Assembly: GCA_028598985.1 (NCBI GenBank) | Contig: JAQRMV010000012.1 | Coordinates: 1 to 42,832 of the forward strand | DNA: 42,832 nucleotides | Reading direction: 5' to 3' | Origin: Gammaproteobacteria bacterium | GTDB taxonomy: Bacteria; Pseudomonadota; Gammaproteobacteria; Pseudomonadales; Balneatricaceae | Part shown: piece by piece, positions 1,947-9,758 of the stretch | Layout: every line of letters starts with the position of its first letter | Numbering within the stretch: position 1 is the first letter of the stretch | Notes under the pieces: model-generated | Databases searched by the model: none | What the model was told of the DNA's origin: nothing | What the model saw: only the letters and a program-made list of their open reading frames with translations | Program-made: the position numbers and the translations under genes

Positions 1947-3068
1947 CTACCGGCAGTATGTTTGAACTACAAATGGCATCTTACACACTCTGCAGGGTAA
2001 TTGCTTGCCACGCACAAGTGCAAATACTTGGGTATCAACCTCACACAGGGCGCTATCGAGATAGCCCATTGCTAAAGGTGATCCTAAACTGGGCCCAAAA
2101 CCACCGGAAGTGACAACACCAATTACACTTCCATCCGACGTGACTAGTTCCACACCCTCTCGTACTGGAGCTTTTCCTTCTGGCAACAAACCCACACGAC
2201 GGCGGGGCGCACCATTAGCCATTTGGTCCAAAATAACATGGGCTCCTGGAAAACCACCTTCTCTATCCCCACCGGCACGGCGGCTTTTTTGAATACCCCA
2301 AACCAAGTTGGCAGAAACAGGGGTCGTTTGTTGGTTTAGATCATGCCCATACAAACACAGGCCGGCCTCTAAACGCAGTGAATCTCGCGCACCCAAACCA
2401 ATCCATTCAACTTCATCGAACGCTAATAGGCTAGCGGCCAGTGCTTCGGCTCGGTCGTTGGCAACAGAAATTTCAAAACCGTCTTCACCCGTATAACCAG
2501 CGCGACCAATAAAACAATCGTGGCCTAGAATAGACACCGCTTTAGCATCCATAAAACGCATAGCTGCTACTTCTGGGGCCAAACGAGCTAATATGTCGCC
2601 CGCTTTAGGCCCCTGCAATGCCAACAAAGATCGGTTGTCCAGCACTTCTAGGTTAATATCGCTACCGAAGTGGGCTCGCATATGAGCGATATCTTGTTCC
2701 TTACATCCCGCATTAACCACAACGAAAAAATGGTCGCCTGCATTAGTCACCATTAAGTCATCCATAATGCCGCCCTGAGCATTAGTGAAAAACCCGTAAC
2801 GTTGACGACCTTCAGCAAGGTTTACATAGTCAGCTGGGATTAAACTTTCTAAAGCTAGAGCCACGGCTTCCATAGAAGTACCCGTGAGACGCACTTGACC
2901 CATGTGAGAAACATCAAACAACCCGACTTGCGCACGACAATGTAGATGTTCTTGTTTCACACCCATGGCATATTGCACGGGCATATCGTAACCAGCAAAA
3001 GGAACCATTTTGGCTCCCGCTTCAATATGCATGGCATGAAAAGGGGTGGTTAACAAAGAATCAGACAT
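1947..3068 (-). CDS. gcvT: Glycine cleavage system T protein (aminomethyltransferase)
   Basis: GcvT moves the methylene group from the aminomethyl-lipoyl arm of GcvH to tetrahydrofolate and releases ammonia. Family sequences seen include the N-terminal TPFHAMHIEAGAKMVPFAGYDMPVQY, GLFDVSHMGQ, the folate-binding region GRAGYTGEDGFEI, and GLGARDSLRLEAGLCLYGHD. The length of 373 residues is normal for the family. I chose ATG 3068 (MSDSLL...) over the GTG at 3080 because it fits family N-termini; neither has a strong ribosome site. It is read away from gcvH-gcvP, with the XRE/cupin gene between them. It has its own predicted promoter with a palindrome in the spacer, and it leads an apparent gcvT-sbcB-yqaA transcript. 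Confidence 0.95.
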   Translation of the reverse strand: MSDSLLTTPFHAMHIEAGAKMVPFAGYDMPVQYAMGVKQEHLHCRAQVGLFDVSHMGQVRLTGTSMEAVALALESLIPADYVNLAEGRQRYGFFTNAQGGIMDDLMVTNAGDHFFVVVNAGCKEQDIAHMRAHFGSDINLEVLDNRSLLALQGPKAGDILARLAPEVAAMRFMDAKAVSILGHDCFIGRAGYTGEDGFEISVANDRAEALAASLLAFDEVEWIGLGARDSLRLEAGLCLYGHDLNQQTTPVSANLVWGIQKSRRAGGDREGGFPGAHVILDQMANGAPRRRVGLLPEGKAPVREGVELVTSDGSVIGVVTSGGFGPSLGSPLAMGYLDSALCEVDTQVFALVRGKQLPCRVCKMPFVVQTYCR

Positions 3069-3123: not shown

Positions 3124-3152
3124 ATTATAAGCAAGTTTCCTATAGGAAACAA
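3124..3152 (-). promoter_or_regulatory. Predicted gcvT promoter with a 16-bp palindromic operator in the spacer
   Basis: On the minus strand, TTGTTT (3152-3147) and TATAAT (3129-3124) are separated by exactly 17 bases. The perfect palindrome GTTTCCTATAGGAAAC (3135-3150) covers part of the -35 and most of the spacer. A bound protein there would be expected to block RNA polymerase. The adjacent XRE/cupin gene is the obvious candidate binder; that link is inference. Confidence 0.6.
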
Positions 3153-3186: not shown

Positions 3187-3822
3187 TTATCGTGCCACAA
3201 TCCACAAAACCAATGCATCTTGCTCACTTAGGCTTACTAGGGCATGGCCCATATTGGCATCGTAATACATGCTATCACCAGCCACCATAGCCACTGGCTC
3301 ATAAAACTCGGTATAGAGCGCCAACTCTCCTTCCAATACTAACAAAAACTCCTCGCCTTCATGGCGAACCCAATCTCCAAAGTCGTCGAAGCTGCGGGCC
3401 CGAACACGGGTTTTAAAAGGCACCATTTTTTTACGAGCAAGGTCTGTAGATAGCAATTCATGTTCATATGTACTGGTTGGATGGGGCGTACCTTCTCCCG
3501 ATTTTGTCAGCACTCTACGACCCGAAGCCATGGCACTTCGGGGCTTAGCAAAAAGCTGAGGGATATCAATCTGCAAACCATTAGCGAGCTTTTGCACTGC
3601 TGTAAAGGTTGGAGAAATTTGTTCATTTTCAATTTTTGATAGAGTTGAACGCGCTAAACCTGTCTTTTTGCTCGCTTCTTCTAAAGTTAAACTCAAGCTC
3701 TGGCGAATTTCCCGTAACCGCTTTCCTAATTGCAACGGCTCAACATTAGTTTGCAAACCAGAACCGGATTCAATTTTTAATTCTGGCATATCAGGTTGTT
3801 CTGAGGACATGAGGTAGCTCAT
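3187..3822 (-). CDS. XRE-family regulator with C-terminal cupin sensor domain
   Basis: A 211-residue two-domain regulator. Residues about 33-88 form an HTH_3 domain (LGKRLREIRQSLSLTLEEASKKTGLARSTLSKIENEQISPT). Residues about 133-210 form a small cupin_2 barrel (VRHEGEEFLLVLEGELALY, then MVAGDSMYYDANMGHAL). In this family (for example PuuR) the cupin is thought to sense a small metabolite, and the HTH binds palindromes. It sits between gcvT and gcvH-gcvP, in the same orientation as gcvT, with a conserved-looking palindrome on the gcvT side and a related element on the gcvH side. Control of glycine cleavage in response to glycine or a one-carbon metabolite is therefore plausible, but the ligand is not shown by the sequence. 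The start could also be the ATG at 3810. Confidence 0.85.
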   Translation of the reverse strand: MSYLMSSEQPDMPELKIESGSGLQTNVEPLQLGKRLREIRQSLSLTLEEASKKTGLARSTLSKIENEQISPTFTAVQKLANGLQIDIPQLFAKPRSAMASGRRVLTKSGEGTPHPTSTYEHELLSTDLARKKMVPFKTRVRARSFDDFGDWVRHEGEEFLLVLEGELALYTEFYEPVAMVAGDSMYYDANMGHALVSLSEQDALVLWIVAR

Positions 3823-3912
3823 TGGTTTAACTCGATAACAGCCATGCTAACACGGCACTCCGCTGGCGTCATGTTGAAGGTGGCTAAATTTGATTAACAA
3901 GAAACCTTACAT

Positions 3913-3967
3913 GGAAATATTTCCTATTGGCTAATTTATTGATTGAAAGGAATCGAAATGATATGCT
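3913..3967 (+). promoter_or_regulatory. Predicted gcvH promoter with upstream operator-like element
   Basis: TTGATT (3939-3944) and TATGCT (3962-3967) are 17 bases apart on the plus strand. Just upstream is the perfect 12-bp palindrome GGAAATATTTCC (3913-3924). Overlapping it is ATTTCCTATTGGCTAA (3919-3934), which matches the gcvT operator at 11 of 16 positions. An activator or dual regulator could bind here. A further 6-1-6 inverted repeat, ACACTA-T-TAGTGT, lies at 3999-4011 in the predicted leader. Confidence 0.45.
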
Positions 3968-4040: not shown

Positions 4041-4433
4041 ATGAGCAATATTCCTGCTGAATTGCTGTATACCAACTCCCACGAATGGCTGGCCCAAAAC
4101 GGCGACGGCACTGTTACCGTAGGCATTACACATCATGCCCAAGAATTGTTAGGCGACATTGTATTTGTAGAAGCTGCAGATATTGGCCGCCAACTTGATG
4201 CTGGCGAAGAATATACGGTGATCGAATCCGTTAAAGCAGCATCGGATTCATATTCTCCAGTGGCTGGCGAAATCATTGAATTCAATGAAGCCTTAGAAGA
4301 CACACCAGAAACAGTGAATGAAGAGCCATACACGCAAGGCTGGATCATGAAACTTAAGTTGGCAGATAATGCCGATCTAAGCGAGCTACTTAGTGCCGAA
4401 GCATATGCTGACGTTGTAGCCAGCGAAGGCTAA
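4041..4433 (+). CDS. gcvH: Glycine cleavage system H protein
   Basis: GcvH is the lipoyl carrier that shuttles the aminomethyl intermediate between P, T and L proteins. The lipoylation motif [15 protein letters not shown] puts the modified lysine at about residue 65. The family fold is clear from YTNSHEWL through [14 protein letters not shown]. The protein is 130 residues, close to E. coli GcvH (129). The track starts at TTG 4020; I use ATG 4041, which follows CAGGAAC at a suitable distance and gives the expected N-terminus [17 protein letters not shown]. gcvP follows after 78 bases that contain a strong hairpin. GcvL (lipoamide dehydrogenase) is not in this window. Confidence 0.96.
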
Positions 4434-4511: not shown

Positions 4512-7415
4512 ATGCCTGAACCTACTACTGCCCCAACTCCAATCGCACAGCTACTCCAAAACAAGGCCTTTCTCAGCCGTCACCTTGGCCCTAGCGCTGC
4601 AGAAAATGAATCCATGTTATCTCATCTTCAAGTGGGCAGCATTGCCGAGCTATTAGATCAAACGGTTCCAGACAGCATCCGACTTAACCAGCCTTTAAAT
4701 TTGCCTGCGTCAAAGTCGGAAGTAGAGACCCTAGCTCAACTCAGGGAAATGGCGAACAAAAATACAGTCAATGTTTCATGCATCGGCATGGGTTACAGCA
4801 ATACCTTGGTGCCAAACGTTATTTTGCGTAACGTGATGGAAAACCCCGCTTGGTACACAGCCTATACACCCTACCAACCAGAGATTGCTCAAGGTCGCCT
4901 TGAAGCTCTACTCAACTACCAGCAAATGATAATGGACCTTACCGGCATGGAGCTGGCAAATGCGTCTCTACTAGACGAATCAACTGCTGCCGCCGAGGCT
5001 ATGGCTTTGTGTAAGCGTGCCAATAAGAAGAAGAGTGTTACTTTCTTCGTGGATGAAAATACGCACCCACAAAACCTTAGCGTAATACAGACCCGCGCGG
5101 AATATTTTGGATTTGATATTGTCACCGGCAACCCCGCTACAGATTTAGCGCAACACGATGTATTTGGCGTACTAGTGCAATATCCAGGCAGCAATGGCGT
5201 TATTTGTGACCTTAAAAACATCATTGAATCAGCCCATGAACAAAACGCTCTGGTAGCCGTTGGCGCTGACATCATGAGCTTAGTATTACTGCAATCGCCT
5301 GGTCAATTGGGAGCAGACGTGGTGTTTGGCTCTAGCCAGCGCTTTGGTGTTCCCCTTGGTTTTGGTGGCCCACATGCAGCCTTCTTTGCTAGCAAAGACA
5401 AATACAAACGCTCCATTCCCGGCCGTATTATTGGCGTCTCTATTGATACCAAAGGCAAACCAGCATTACGCATGGCAATGCAGACACGCGAACAGCATAT
5501 TCGCCGCGAGAAGGCTAACTCAAACATCTGTACTGCACAGGCACTTTTAGCCAACATGTCGTCCTTCTACGCCGTATACCATGGGCCTGAAGGCTTACGT
5601 ACTATTGCCAGCCGCATCCAGCGATTAACCGCTATTTTAGCCGCGCAGCTTGACGCTATAGGTTTCCCTGCAGACAACCAAACCTTCTTTGATACCCTTA
5701 CCTTAGCCACTCATGGTCAGCAAGACGCAATTTACCAGCGCGCCCTTAATGCTGGGTATAATTTACGCAAAATTGGTTTGGACCAACTAGGCATCAGCTT
5801 AGACGAAACTACACAAGTGACCCACATCCAAAGTCTTTTGAACATATTTGCTGGTGCCCAAGTCGATTTTGACCTAGCCGCCACAGACAATCTATGTAGC
5901 AGCATTAACATGGGTATGGCTAGCGAATTAATGCGTGCAGACGCCATTCTTGAACACCCCGTGTTTAATAGCTACCACAGCGAAACAGACATGCTGCGTT
6001 ACTTAAAGAAACTGGAAAACAAAGATTTTTCTTTAGTTCATGGCATGATCCCCTTAGGTTCGTGCACCATGAAACTTAATGCTACGGCGCAAATGGCAGC
6101 CGTCACTTGGCCTGAATTTGCTAACATGCATCCTTTTGCACCTGTAGAACAAACCCAGGGCTACCTCGAACTTATTCGTTCTTTAGAAGCACAATTAGTA
6201 GAGATTACCGGTTACGACCAAGTATCTATGCAACCCAATTCTGGGGCTCAAGGTGAATATGCAGGCCTTGTAGCTATCCGTAAATACCAACACAGTATAG
6301 GTGAAGGTCATCGTAACGTTTGTATCATACCTAGCTCTTCCCACGGCACTAATCCAGCCAGTGCCGCCATGGTAGATATGAAGGTGGTAGTGGTGCGCTG
6401 TGACGATCTAGGCAACGTTGATGTTGCCGATCTTAAAGCCAAGGCTGAGCAACATGCCGAACAATTATCTTGCTTAATGATCACCTACCCTTCTACCCAC
6501 GGCGTATACGAAGAAAGCATCGTAGATATTTGCGATATTATTCATCACAACGGTGGCCAAGTGTATATGGACGGTGCCAATATGAATGCCCAGGTAGGCA
6601 TCAGCAAACCTGGCATTATCGGGTCAGACGTTTCACATTTGAACTTGCACAAAACGTTTGCTATCCCACACGGTGGTGGTGGCCCGGGCATGGGTCCTAT
6701 CGGTGTAAAGTCCCACTTAGCGCCTTTCTTACCCAACCATCCTGTGATTTCAGTACATGGAGAGGATAATGGTAATGGAGCTGTTTCTGCAGCACCTTAC
6801 GGCAGCGGCTCCATCTTGCCTATTTCGTGGGCCTACATTAATTTGTTAGGTGCAGAAGGTTTAGAGCAGTCTACAGCCCAAGCTATTTTGAACGCCAACT
6901 ACATGGCTTCACGCCTAAGTGAGCATTTCCCAATTTTGTACCAAGGCCGCAATAACCGAGTAGCACACGAATGTATTATTGATATTCGTCCGCTTAAAGA
7001 AACCACGGGCATCAGCGAAGAAGACATTGCCAAACGTTTAATGGATTATGGTTTTCATGCGCCCACCATGTCATTCCCTGTGGCAGGTACGTTAATGATC
7101 GAGCCAACGGAATCTGAGCCGAAGCGAGAAATAGATCGCTTCTGTGACGCCATGGCTAACATTCGCGAAGAAATTGCTAAAATCGAAACAGGTGAATGGA
7201 GCCCTAAGCACAACCCACTTAAGATGGCACCTCATACCCAATTAGATCTAGCCAGCCATGGCTGGAACCGCGGCTATTCTCGCACCCTTGCAGCCTTCCC
7301 AACTGAAGCCACTTTAGATGCAAAATTTTGGCCTACTGTAAACCGTATAGACAACGTATATGGTGACCGCAATCTGATTTGCTCTTGCCCTCCAATGGAA
7401 GCGTACCAAGACTAA
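4512..7415 (+). CDS. gcvP: Glycine dehydrogenase (decarboxylating), P protein, single-chain form
   Basis: GcvP is the PLP enzyme that decarboxylates glycine and loads the aminomethyl group onto GcvH. At about 967 residues it is the fused P1+P2 type found in gammaproteobacteria. It shows the N-terminal [30 protein letters not shown] opening the second half, and the PLP-lysine motif [19 protein letters not shown] with Lys at about residue 714. The glycine-rich loop after the lysine is intact. ATG 4512 is preferred over TTG 4488 because GTGAGGA precedes it at a suitable distance and the protein then begins MPEPTTAP. It is followed by a clear terminator. Expression probably depends on the gcvH promoter and on read-through of the hairpin at 4450-4478. 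Confidence 0.97.
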
Positions 7416-7604: not shown

Positions 7605-9758
7605 GTGCGAGCACTGAATCAATTCTTACCTTTATACTTAAGCTGTACGCTTTTGCTTATGGGCAACGGTTTGCTGTTTATCATCATCCCTATGAGCATG
7701 CGCTTAGATGGCCAGGACACCGACGCCATCGGTTTAGTCATGTCGCTATATTTTGTGGGCATGTTGTTGGGTTCTTTATACGGTAGGCATCTTATTAGCC
7801 GAGTGGGCCACATCCGCATTTTTGCCGCTTGTGCTTCCGTGGCTACCATGTGCGCATTGTTACATAGCATCTGGTCTGTACCTCTAGTTTGGGGTTTACT
7901 TCGGGTTCTGATTGGCTTTACCAACGCCACTTTTTTTATGACAATGGAAACCTGGTTGAGTGAGAGTTCCACCAGCGAAAACCGCGCTACAGTATTTGGC
8001 AGCTATCAATTTGTGACCTACTTTGGTTTGGCACTGGGCCAGCTCATGCTTAACTTTGCAGAGCCACAAGATCCTATTCTCTATATCTACGTAGCGATGC
8101 TGTTTTGTTTATGCATGATTCCAGTGTTGATGAGCCGTTCTGGTGGCCCACGCATCAATGAACCTGAACCTATGCCCTTAAACACCCTCTATAAAACATC
8201 GCCTCTAGGGGTAGTGGGCATTATGATTTCGGGTATTTGTTTAGGTGCCCTATATAACATGAGTAGTGTGTACGGTGCTGATGTAGGTATGACAAAAAGC
8301 CAAATTGCCACCTTTATGAGCGCCACCATGGTGGGCGGTTTCTTATTGCAGTTCCCCATTGGTAAATTAGCCGATATATTTGACCGTCGAACAGTACTAG
8401 TAATGACTTTATTGGTCGCCTGCTTGTCTGCCATGATATTGCCGATTATGGCCACCCGCGGCGAATTAGCCATTACCATCGCCTGCGCTGTTATTCTTAG
8501 TGGTGCTTTAGCTTGTGTATACCCCATTGCCTTAGCAGACGCATTTGACCGATTAAAGCCTACAGAAATGGTGGCAGCCAGTGGCAAACTTATCCTAGCC
8601 TATGCTACTGGTGGCGCTATTGGTCCCTATACCGCCTCTTTAGTAATGAAACACATGGGAGCAGACGCCCTGTTTGGTTATTTGATTGTGGCCAGCTTAA
8701 TTTTGATCGCTTTCGTAATGTACCGCATGACTATTCGTTCCGCTGTACCCGATGCATTACAAGAATCTTTCGTCGTACAAGGCATGACACCTATGGCCAC
8801 CGAGCTTGACCCTCGAACTGAGTACAATAGCCTAAACGAAACCGGCGTGGCCGCAGAAACGGTTCTATTACTGGCAGAAGAAAACCCCAAAGATGTGGTA
8901 GAAATTGCCGTTAGTGTTGCCCTTAACCAGCCAGAAGAAGCGGTGAATATTGCTCAAGCTGCAGCTTATAATTACCCAGATAACGCCGAAGCATTAGCCA
9001 TTGCCTTAGCCGATGAACTACCACACTTTAAATTAGACATCATTACCAGCGTTGCCGGTTCTGCACCACAATCAAGTGCCGCACTTGCGCGCTACATGTG
9101 CGATCTCATTAAACAACAAAAGCTAGAGCCACAAGCCAGTTTTAATGCCCTAAGCCAACTCACCCGCAAACTGCTGGACGAAGCCCCACAACAAGCCACA
9201 GAGATTGCTGCCATTGTTAGTCAGGAAATAGCCGACGATATGCCGGAGTTAGTGGCAGAAATTGCCGTATTAGCTGCAGAAGCTGCTCCAGATCAACGGG
9301 TAGAAGTTGCCGCTGCCGTGATCCAAGAAGTTCCCGAAGCCAGTGTAGAAGTAGCCGCAGGCGTGGCCGAAGCCATTGCTGCAAGCCCTGACGATGAGCT
9401 GCACTCCTTCTTAGCTGGAGAGGGTGATGAAGATTATGTGGGCGAAGGTGCAGAGCTCGCCATGGCGGTAGCACACGAGGCACCAGATCAAGCGTTACTA
9501 GACATTGCCACCGCCGTAGCCGAAGCCCTGCCAGATGATGCCGCGCAGGTGGCAGAATCTATCGCCCAAACAGACCCAGAACAGGCCTCTGACATTGTAG
9601 ACAGTATTAGTGAAGCAGTGCCCGACATGGCAGATGACGTCATGTACGCCGTGGCTAGTTCGCTGCCTGATCAGGCGGAGGAATTATTACAAGAAGTGCT
9701 GCTAGATGCAGAGTCCAATGACCTTTCTACTGACAACTCTCATTCTTCAGTGAGCTAA
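7605..9758 (+). CDS. YcaD-like MFS transporter with long repetitive C-terminal tail
   Basis: Residues about 1-385 are a 12-helix major facilitator domain resembling E. coli YcaD, with MISGICLGALYNMSSVYG, FPIGKLADIFDRRTVLV and ACVYPIALADAFDRL. The substrate is unknown. YcaD stops near 380 residues, whereas this protein continues to 717. From about residue 420 it is soluble, Ala/Glu/Asp-rich and built of 15-residue units of the form P-[DE]-x-A-x-x-[VI]-A-x-x-[VI]-A. Prolines fall at 428, 443, 458, 473 and 488, and again at 643, 658, 673 and 688. The tail is probably cytoplasmic, if the MFS fold has 12 helices. The start is GTG after AGGTGGCCT. It is a single gene, flanked by the gcvP terminator and convergent mutT, whose 3' end it overlaps by 32 bases. 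Confidence 0.85.
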   Translation: MRALNQFLPLYLSCTLLLMGNGLLFIIIPMSMRLDGQDTDAIGLVMSLYFVGMLLGSLYGRHLISRVGHIRIFAACASVATMCALLHSIWSVPLVWGLLRVLIGFTNATFFMTMETWLSESSTSENRATVFGSYQFVTYFGLALGQLMLNFAEPQDPILYIYVAMLFCLCMIPVLMSRSGGPRINEPEPMPLNTLYKTSPLGVVGIMISGICLGALYNMSSVYGADVGMTKSQIATFMSATMVGGFLLQFPIGKLADIFDRRTVLVMTLLVACLSAMILPIMATRGELAITIACAVILSGALACVYPIALADAFDRLKPTEMVAASGKLILAYATGGAIGPYTASLVMKHMGADALFGYLIVASLILIAFVMYRMTIRSAVPDALQESFVVQGMTPMATELDPRTEYNSLNETGVAAETVLLLAEENPKDVVEIAVSVALNQPEEAVNIAQAAAYNYPDNAEALAIALADELPHFKLDIITSVAGSAPQSSAALARYMCDLIKQQKLEPQASFNALSQLTRKLLDEAPQQATEIAAIVSQEIADDMPELVAEIAVLAAEAAPDQRVEVAAAVIQEVPEASVEVAAGVAEAIAASPDDELHSFLAGEGDEDYVGEGAELAMAVAHEAPDQALLDIATAVAEALPDDAAQVAESIAQTDPEQASDIVDSISEAVPDMADDVMYAVASSLPDQAEELLQEVLLDAESNDLSTDNSHSSVS
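8886..9713 (+). repeat. 15-residue tandem repeat array in the MFS tail
   Basis: This is the coding region for residues 428 to about 703. A first block has five prolines exactly 15 residues apart (428-488). A middle block has looser spacing (528, 547, 562, 577, 595). A last block has prolines at 627, 643, 658, 673 and 688. The repeat is in the protein; the DNA is diverged, so it is not a recent tandem duplication. Confidence 0.85.

Follow-up and report, generated by a model that had tools for sequence, protein, structure and literature searches.

A conserved palindrome in the gcvT promoter region, candidate operator of a neighbouring XRE-cupin regulator of glycine cleavage

The window, by which we mean the whole stretch of 42,832 nucleotides that was analyzed, carries glycine cleavage genes arranged around a gene encoding an XRE-cupin protein (Table 1). 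The gcvT gene lies downstream of the XRE-cupin gene on the same strand; gcvH-gcvP, on the opposite side of that gene, are transcribed divergently. Further along, at 7605-9758, an MFS transporter ORF presents an unusual long alanine-rich, repeat-like C-terminal extension after the transporter domain.

Table 1. Genes, predicted promoters and candidate operators around the XRE-cupin gene.
Feature	Position	Strand	Remarks
gcvT, aminomethyltransferase (PRK13579-type)	1947..3068	-	NF010093, 546 bits vs cut-off 459
gcvT promoter, -10 box TATAAT	3124..3129	-	TATA in all 14 aligned sequences
O1, proposed gcvT operator, perfect palindrome GTTTCCTATAGGAAAC	3135..3150	.	kept in 13 related loci and beyond
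gcvT promoter, -35 box TTGTTT	3147..3152	-	overlaps O1; conserved in the genus
XRE-cupin regulator gene, 211 aa, HTH_3 + Cupin_2; proposed O1 binder	3187..3822	-	Pfam, conserved residues, fold match 1y9q
Predicted regulator promoter ATGACG-17-TAGCAT	3844..3872	-	from alignment; weak consensus match
GGAAATATTTCC, 12-bp palindrome overlapping O2	3913..3924	.	conserved in part of the genus
O2, proposed operator, degenerate second copy TTTCCTATTGGCTA between regulator and gcvH	3920..3933	+	
Predicted gcvH promoter TTGATT-17-TATGCT	3939..3967	+	19 bases from O2 start
gcvH, divergent from regulator	4041..4433	+	NF002270, TIGR00527
gcvP	4512..7415	+	PF02347, PF21478

The first-pass annotation had pointed to a perfect 16-bp palindrome within a gcvT promoter of the form TTGTTT-17-TATAAT. 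Both are present: GTTTCCTATAGGAAAC occupies exactly this place (O1) and is the sole copy in the window at up to 3 mismatches in a pattern search, and the promoter is found on the minus strand, with a spacer of 17 bases, about 55 bases ahead of the gcvT start. The statement that the palindrome covers the spacer was inexact, as O1 takes in 12 of the 17 spacer bases and also the last 4 bases of the -35 box. Three perfect 16-bp palindromes were observed in the window vs 0.7 expected; the other two are located in coding sequence, in gcvH (4273-4288) and gcvP (5383-5398), and are likely due to chance. Palindromy alone is therefore weak evidence for O1, and the case for this site rests on comparison across relatives.

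The neighbouring gene had been described as an HTH-cupin regulator, and its product indeed contains an HTH_3 domain (residues 36-88, 51.8 bits) and a Cupin_2 domain (residues 151-209, 43.9 bits), both above the Pfam cut-off. With an N-terminal XRE and a C-terminal cupin domain, it conforms to the XRE-cupin family, whose members measure about 180-210 aa. The same XRE-then-cupin order is given by the fold search and by the AlphaFold model; from the latter, of moderate confidence (pLDDT 64), only domain order was taken. The best PDB match, by sequence and by fold, is 1y9q, the solved structure of an HTH_3 family regulator of Vibrio cholerae; by sequence only the HTH part matches, and 1y9q is not an ortholog. 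Among proteins from genomes that share the site, the recognition region ARSTLSKIENEQISPTF shows essentially no variation. Also, the cupin residues H154, E158 and H193 are invariant, a pattern that would fit a site for a metal or a ligand.

A paralogous XRE-cupin (59-60% identity) is encoded in the same genome at L115:6033-6572 (G000:C102). Its gene overlaps the end of a second sdaA and is followed by rdgB- and hemW-like genes, an arrangement kept across the genus. We rejected this paralog as a rival binder of the palindrome on the basis of its recognition helix, which differs from that of the regulator (AQSTLSKMENNQL vs ARSTLSKIENEQI). No TTTCC..GGAAA was found in the approximately 170 bases upstream of the second sdaA.

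For comparison within the genus, the gcvT upstream regions of the window and of 13 relatives (Oceanospirillaceae ASP10-02a group) were aligned. The gap between the regulator gene and gcvT aligned poorly in these 14 sequences, save for AAGAAAATTTgTTTCCTATAGGAAAC...TATAAT, which forms the main conserved block between divergent flanks; the O1 palindrome varied in three columns only. The copy next to gcvH had an invariant right arm, ATAGGAAA, across the alignment. The left arm was degenerate in close relatives, including the window, where O2 thus has one degenerate arm, and it was perfect in four more distant members, in which O2 is a full palindrome. The predicted promoter of the regulator gene is free of overlap with O2.

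Beyond the genus, we considered the best 80 relatives of the regulator (62-97% identity). All of them are encoded beside gcvT, with gcvH, gcvP, glyA or sdaA nearby in most cases, and the gcvT-adjacent regulator recurs together with the site in Vibrio, Photobacterium, Psychromonas, Marinobacterium and others. The palindrome TTTCCTATAGGAAA, within a few changes, is found upstream of the divergent operon in almost all 80 loci and often also upstream of gcvT, and a conserved palindrome appears to flank the regulator gene on one or both sides in most relatives. An alignment of gcvT upstream regions had been proposed as a check of the initial reading; it revealed that TTTCCTATAGGAAA is conserved at gcvT and at partner genes in the genomes that bear the regulator. 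A pattern search with TTTCCWWWWGGAAA in 117 family members (genomes of 1.4-6 Mb) returned 0-4 copies per genome, mostly at gcv, sdaA or glyA genes. The pattern occurred at most 600 bp upstream in 25 of the 48 gcvT genes compared; many of the remaining ones have it 1-2.6 kb upstream, where the module starts. Judging from these sites, neighbouring metabolic genes would be the targets of the protein, as in the XRE-cupin family.

Some observations were made at other places in these genomes. SAM-I/IV riboswitches were detected near the regulator locus of three relatives (L067:5896-6002, L076:5303-5409, L113:2179-2282). In genera g7 and g2, copies of the palindrome lie upstream of permease- or transporter-like genes and near a TRAP-type binding protein (L184:1989, L185:2025, L186:2067, L187:2082), and these transport genes are possible targets of the regulator. 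Non-gcv sites of other genera, whether near these transporters or near other genes, were excluded as evidence.

The site is also found apart from the regulator gene. In genera g8 (L175-L180) and g3 (L188), the regulator is encoded off the gcv locus and the site is still present between gcvT and sdaA/gcvH, and in genus g6 (L181-L183) extra sites precede a separate gcvHP operon. Since the site occurs at gcv away from the regulator gene, mere linkage is hard to invoke. Counting non-gcv sites as well, and scoring the regulator as present at E <= 1e-60, a threshold that admits some 57-61% homologs, we found the site in 84 of the 89 genomes with the regulator vs 7 of the 28 without it (exceptions on the two sides: 5 and 7). 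In view of this scoring, and because the genomes are related and do not represent independent events, the corresponding Fisher test (P = 7e-13) is only a guide. Genera g5, g9 and g13 each include genomes in both states. Genomes without the regulator mostly lack the close GcvT type too and keep a 37-40% type. Thus, regulator, site and close GcvT type would tend to move as a module, with exceptions.

A second site of the genome to which the window belongs, TTTCCTTTTGGAAA (G000:C91:11894-11907; L160:2395-2408), lies about 200 bp upstream of a gene that we take to be fhs, encoding formate-tetrahydrofolate ligase. In the genus, this site has 0-1 arm mismatches in 10 of the 12 members with an fhs start and 2 in the other two, and its distance is 177-204 bp upstream in all 12. 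TTGAC and GTTTCTTAT often come after it, at a distance that stays constant, the latter possibly a second, weaker site; the TTGAC comes at an offset similar to that of the gcvH, glyA and sdaA promoters. Glycine cleavage feeds the one-carbon folate pool, on which Fhs acts, and fhs may therefore belong to one regulon with gcv. Three near matches in the genome were discarded as targets, since they fall inside coding sequences: a methionine aminopeptidase-like gene (G000:C118), a sensor kinase gene (C35) and a helicase-like gene (C66). The first-pass annotation had suggested a local switch. This holds only in part: within the genus the site also stands at fhs, and in other genera it occurs apart from the regulator gene. 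Our data support a predicted regulator and operator for gcv with a small trans-acting regulon instead of a purely local circuit.

The position of the site with respect to promoters is not the same at all genes. At gcvH, glyA and sdaA, a predicted promoter TTGNNN-17-TANNNT starts 19-22 bases after the start of the palindrome in 46 of 60 distinct upstream sequences, vs about 0.2 expected from shuffled sequences. This fixed spacing was seen in loci of the genus, of Vibrio and of Marinobacterium, and it puts the centre of the site at about -49.5, over the UP-element region and beside the -35 box. It may reflect activation, blocking of the UP element, or inheritance of one ancestral promoter. The location of the palindrome had been called ideal for repression; this remains apt for gcvT in the genus, where O1 lies over the -35 box and spacer, and it is limited to that case because at the partner promoters the site lies just ahead of -35, an arrangement other than classic occlusion.

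Computation establishes that the site exists, that it is conserved, and that it is tied to the gcv genes and co-occurs with the regulator; we consider that O1 is probably the operator of the adjacent XRE-cupin protein, a regulator of glycine, serine and one-carbon catabolism that would act most likely as a repressor. The regulator would use its XRE domain to bind TTTCCTATAGGAAA as a dimer. At gcvT, the bound protein, over the -35 box and spacer, would most likely block RNA polymerase, and the block would be lifted once the cupin domain binds a metabolite of the pathway, perhaps glycine, serine or a product. The same regulator would also act at the gcvHP copy, degenerate in this genome, and at the fhs copy in the genus, and at glyA or sdaA copies in other genera. 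By means of these copies it could govern glycine, serine and one-carbon catabolism. The sites at gcvH, glyA and sdaA, centred at about -50, speak against this reading, since those described for XRE-cupins occlude the promoter; so do the degenerate arm of O2 and the genomes that have the regulator or the site without the other.

The most serious alternative, which we regard as rather unlikely, is that the regulator is an activator or has a dual role: bound upstream of -35 at gcvHP, glyA, sdaA and fhs it would aid RNA polymerase, while a position over the promoter would be confined to gcvT of this genus. Lambda CI at PRM is a general precedent for help given to the polymerase from just upstream of -35. 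The rigid spacing suggests contact with the polymerase, and the TTGAC at a similar offset after the fhs site is in line with this; however, a centre near -49.5 departs from where activators classically bind, which for lambda CI is -42. Moreover, the divergent promoters beside the regulator gene may be homologous, with an inherited spacing, and a site over the UP element could equally repress. The studied XRE-cupins of Pseudomonas are exclusive inhibitors (PMC7901475). The specific combination in which one palindrome serves two modes, occlusion at gcvT and activation near -50 at gcvHP, glyA, sdaA and fhs, appears doubtful to us.

It seems very improbable that the palindrome belongs to a different regulator, such as a LysR protein or another global factor, with the XRE-cupin gene a mere neighbour. 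Conservation of a site does not name the protein that binds it, and the genome also encodes a GcvA-like LysR at another locus. But the site tracks the presence of the XRE-cupin across the 117 genomes, lies on both sides of the regulator gene in many of them, and stays at gcv in genomes whose XRE-cupin, with the same recognition helix, is encoded at a different locus. Finally, a chance palindrome or a promoter feature deprived of regulatory role deserves almost no credit despite the excess of palindromes in the window, as the site is conserved across genera at the same genes and is all but missing elsewhere, which rules out chance.

Control of glycine cleavage is known in a few models, namely GcvA/GcvR, GcsR and a riboswitch. 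In Escherichia coli, the LysR activator GcvA and the accessory protein GcvR provide glycine-responsive control of the glycine cleavage genes, and in other bacteria the glycine riboswitch (RF00504) does so for gcv genes. The first-pass annotation held that the present scheme differs from both. As to the riboswitch, this stands: no match to RF00504 was found in the window, in the genome or in 20 related loci. As to GcvA, the best LysR of the genome (G000:C1:81036-81914, not at this locus) scores 265.7 bits, below the equivalog cut-off of 288, yet it is possibly a divergent GcvA or an additional regulator of glycine cleavage. GcsR of Pseudomonas aeruginosa, a TyrR-like enhancer-binding sigma-54 activator induced by glycine, controls gcvH2-gcvP2-glyA2-sdaA-gcvT2 through three tandem copies of TGTAACG-N4-CGTTCCG (PMC4894688). 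The gene set is the same as that predicted for our regulator (gcvH-gcvP-glyA-sdaA-gcvT), whereas the gcvT promoter described here is sigma-70-like.

Several XRE-cupins of Pseudomonas (ErfA, PsdR, PauR, PA0535 and others) have been shown experimentally to bind palindromes and to inhibit neighbouring metabolic genes (PMC7901475); DbuR of P. putida is likewise a local inhibitor with a palindromic site (PMC12724383). They share with the regulator the XRE-then-cupin order and, as predicted in our case, palindromic sites, adjacent metabolic targets and a small regulon. Their targets are different: neither glycine nor gcv occurs in the text of the former study, nor glycine in that of the latter. The rigid site upstream of -35 at partner promoters also sets the regulator apart from them. 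No published description of a gcv XRE-cupin regulator was found in the literature searched, a scope outside which fall subscription papers and RegPrecise-type databases, and we provisionally regard it as undescribed.

Glycine cleavage mutants of V. cholerae differ in behaviour in a fly infection model (PMC5473594), and control of this pathway is therefore of wider interest. To the known models our analysis would add a different regulator with an explicit candidate operator, across Vibrio, Photobacterium and other marine bacteria, with fhs added in one genus. It offers a testable motif and regulon for the little-studied control of glycine and serine breakdown. If the two-mode reading were true, glycine cleavage, serine deamination and one-carbon metabolism would be coordinated across Vibrionaceae and relatives of the Oceanospirillaceae.
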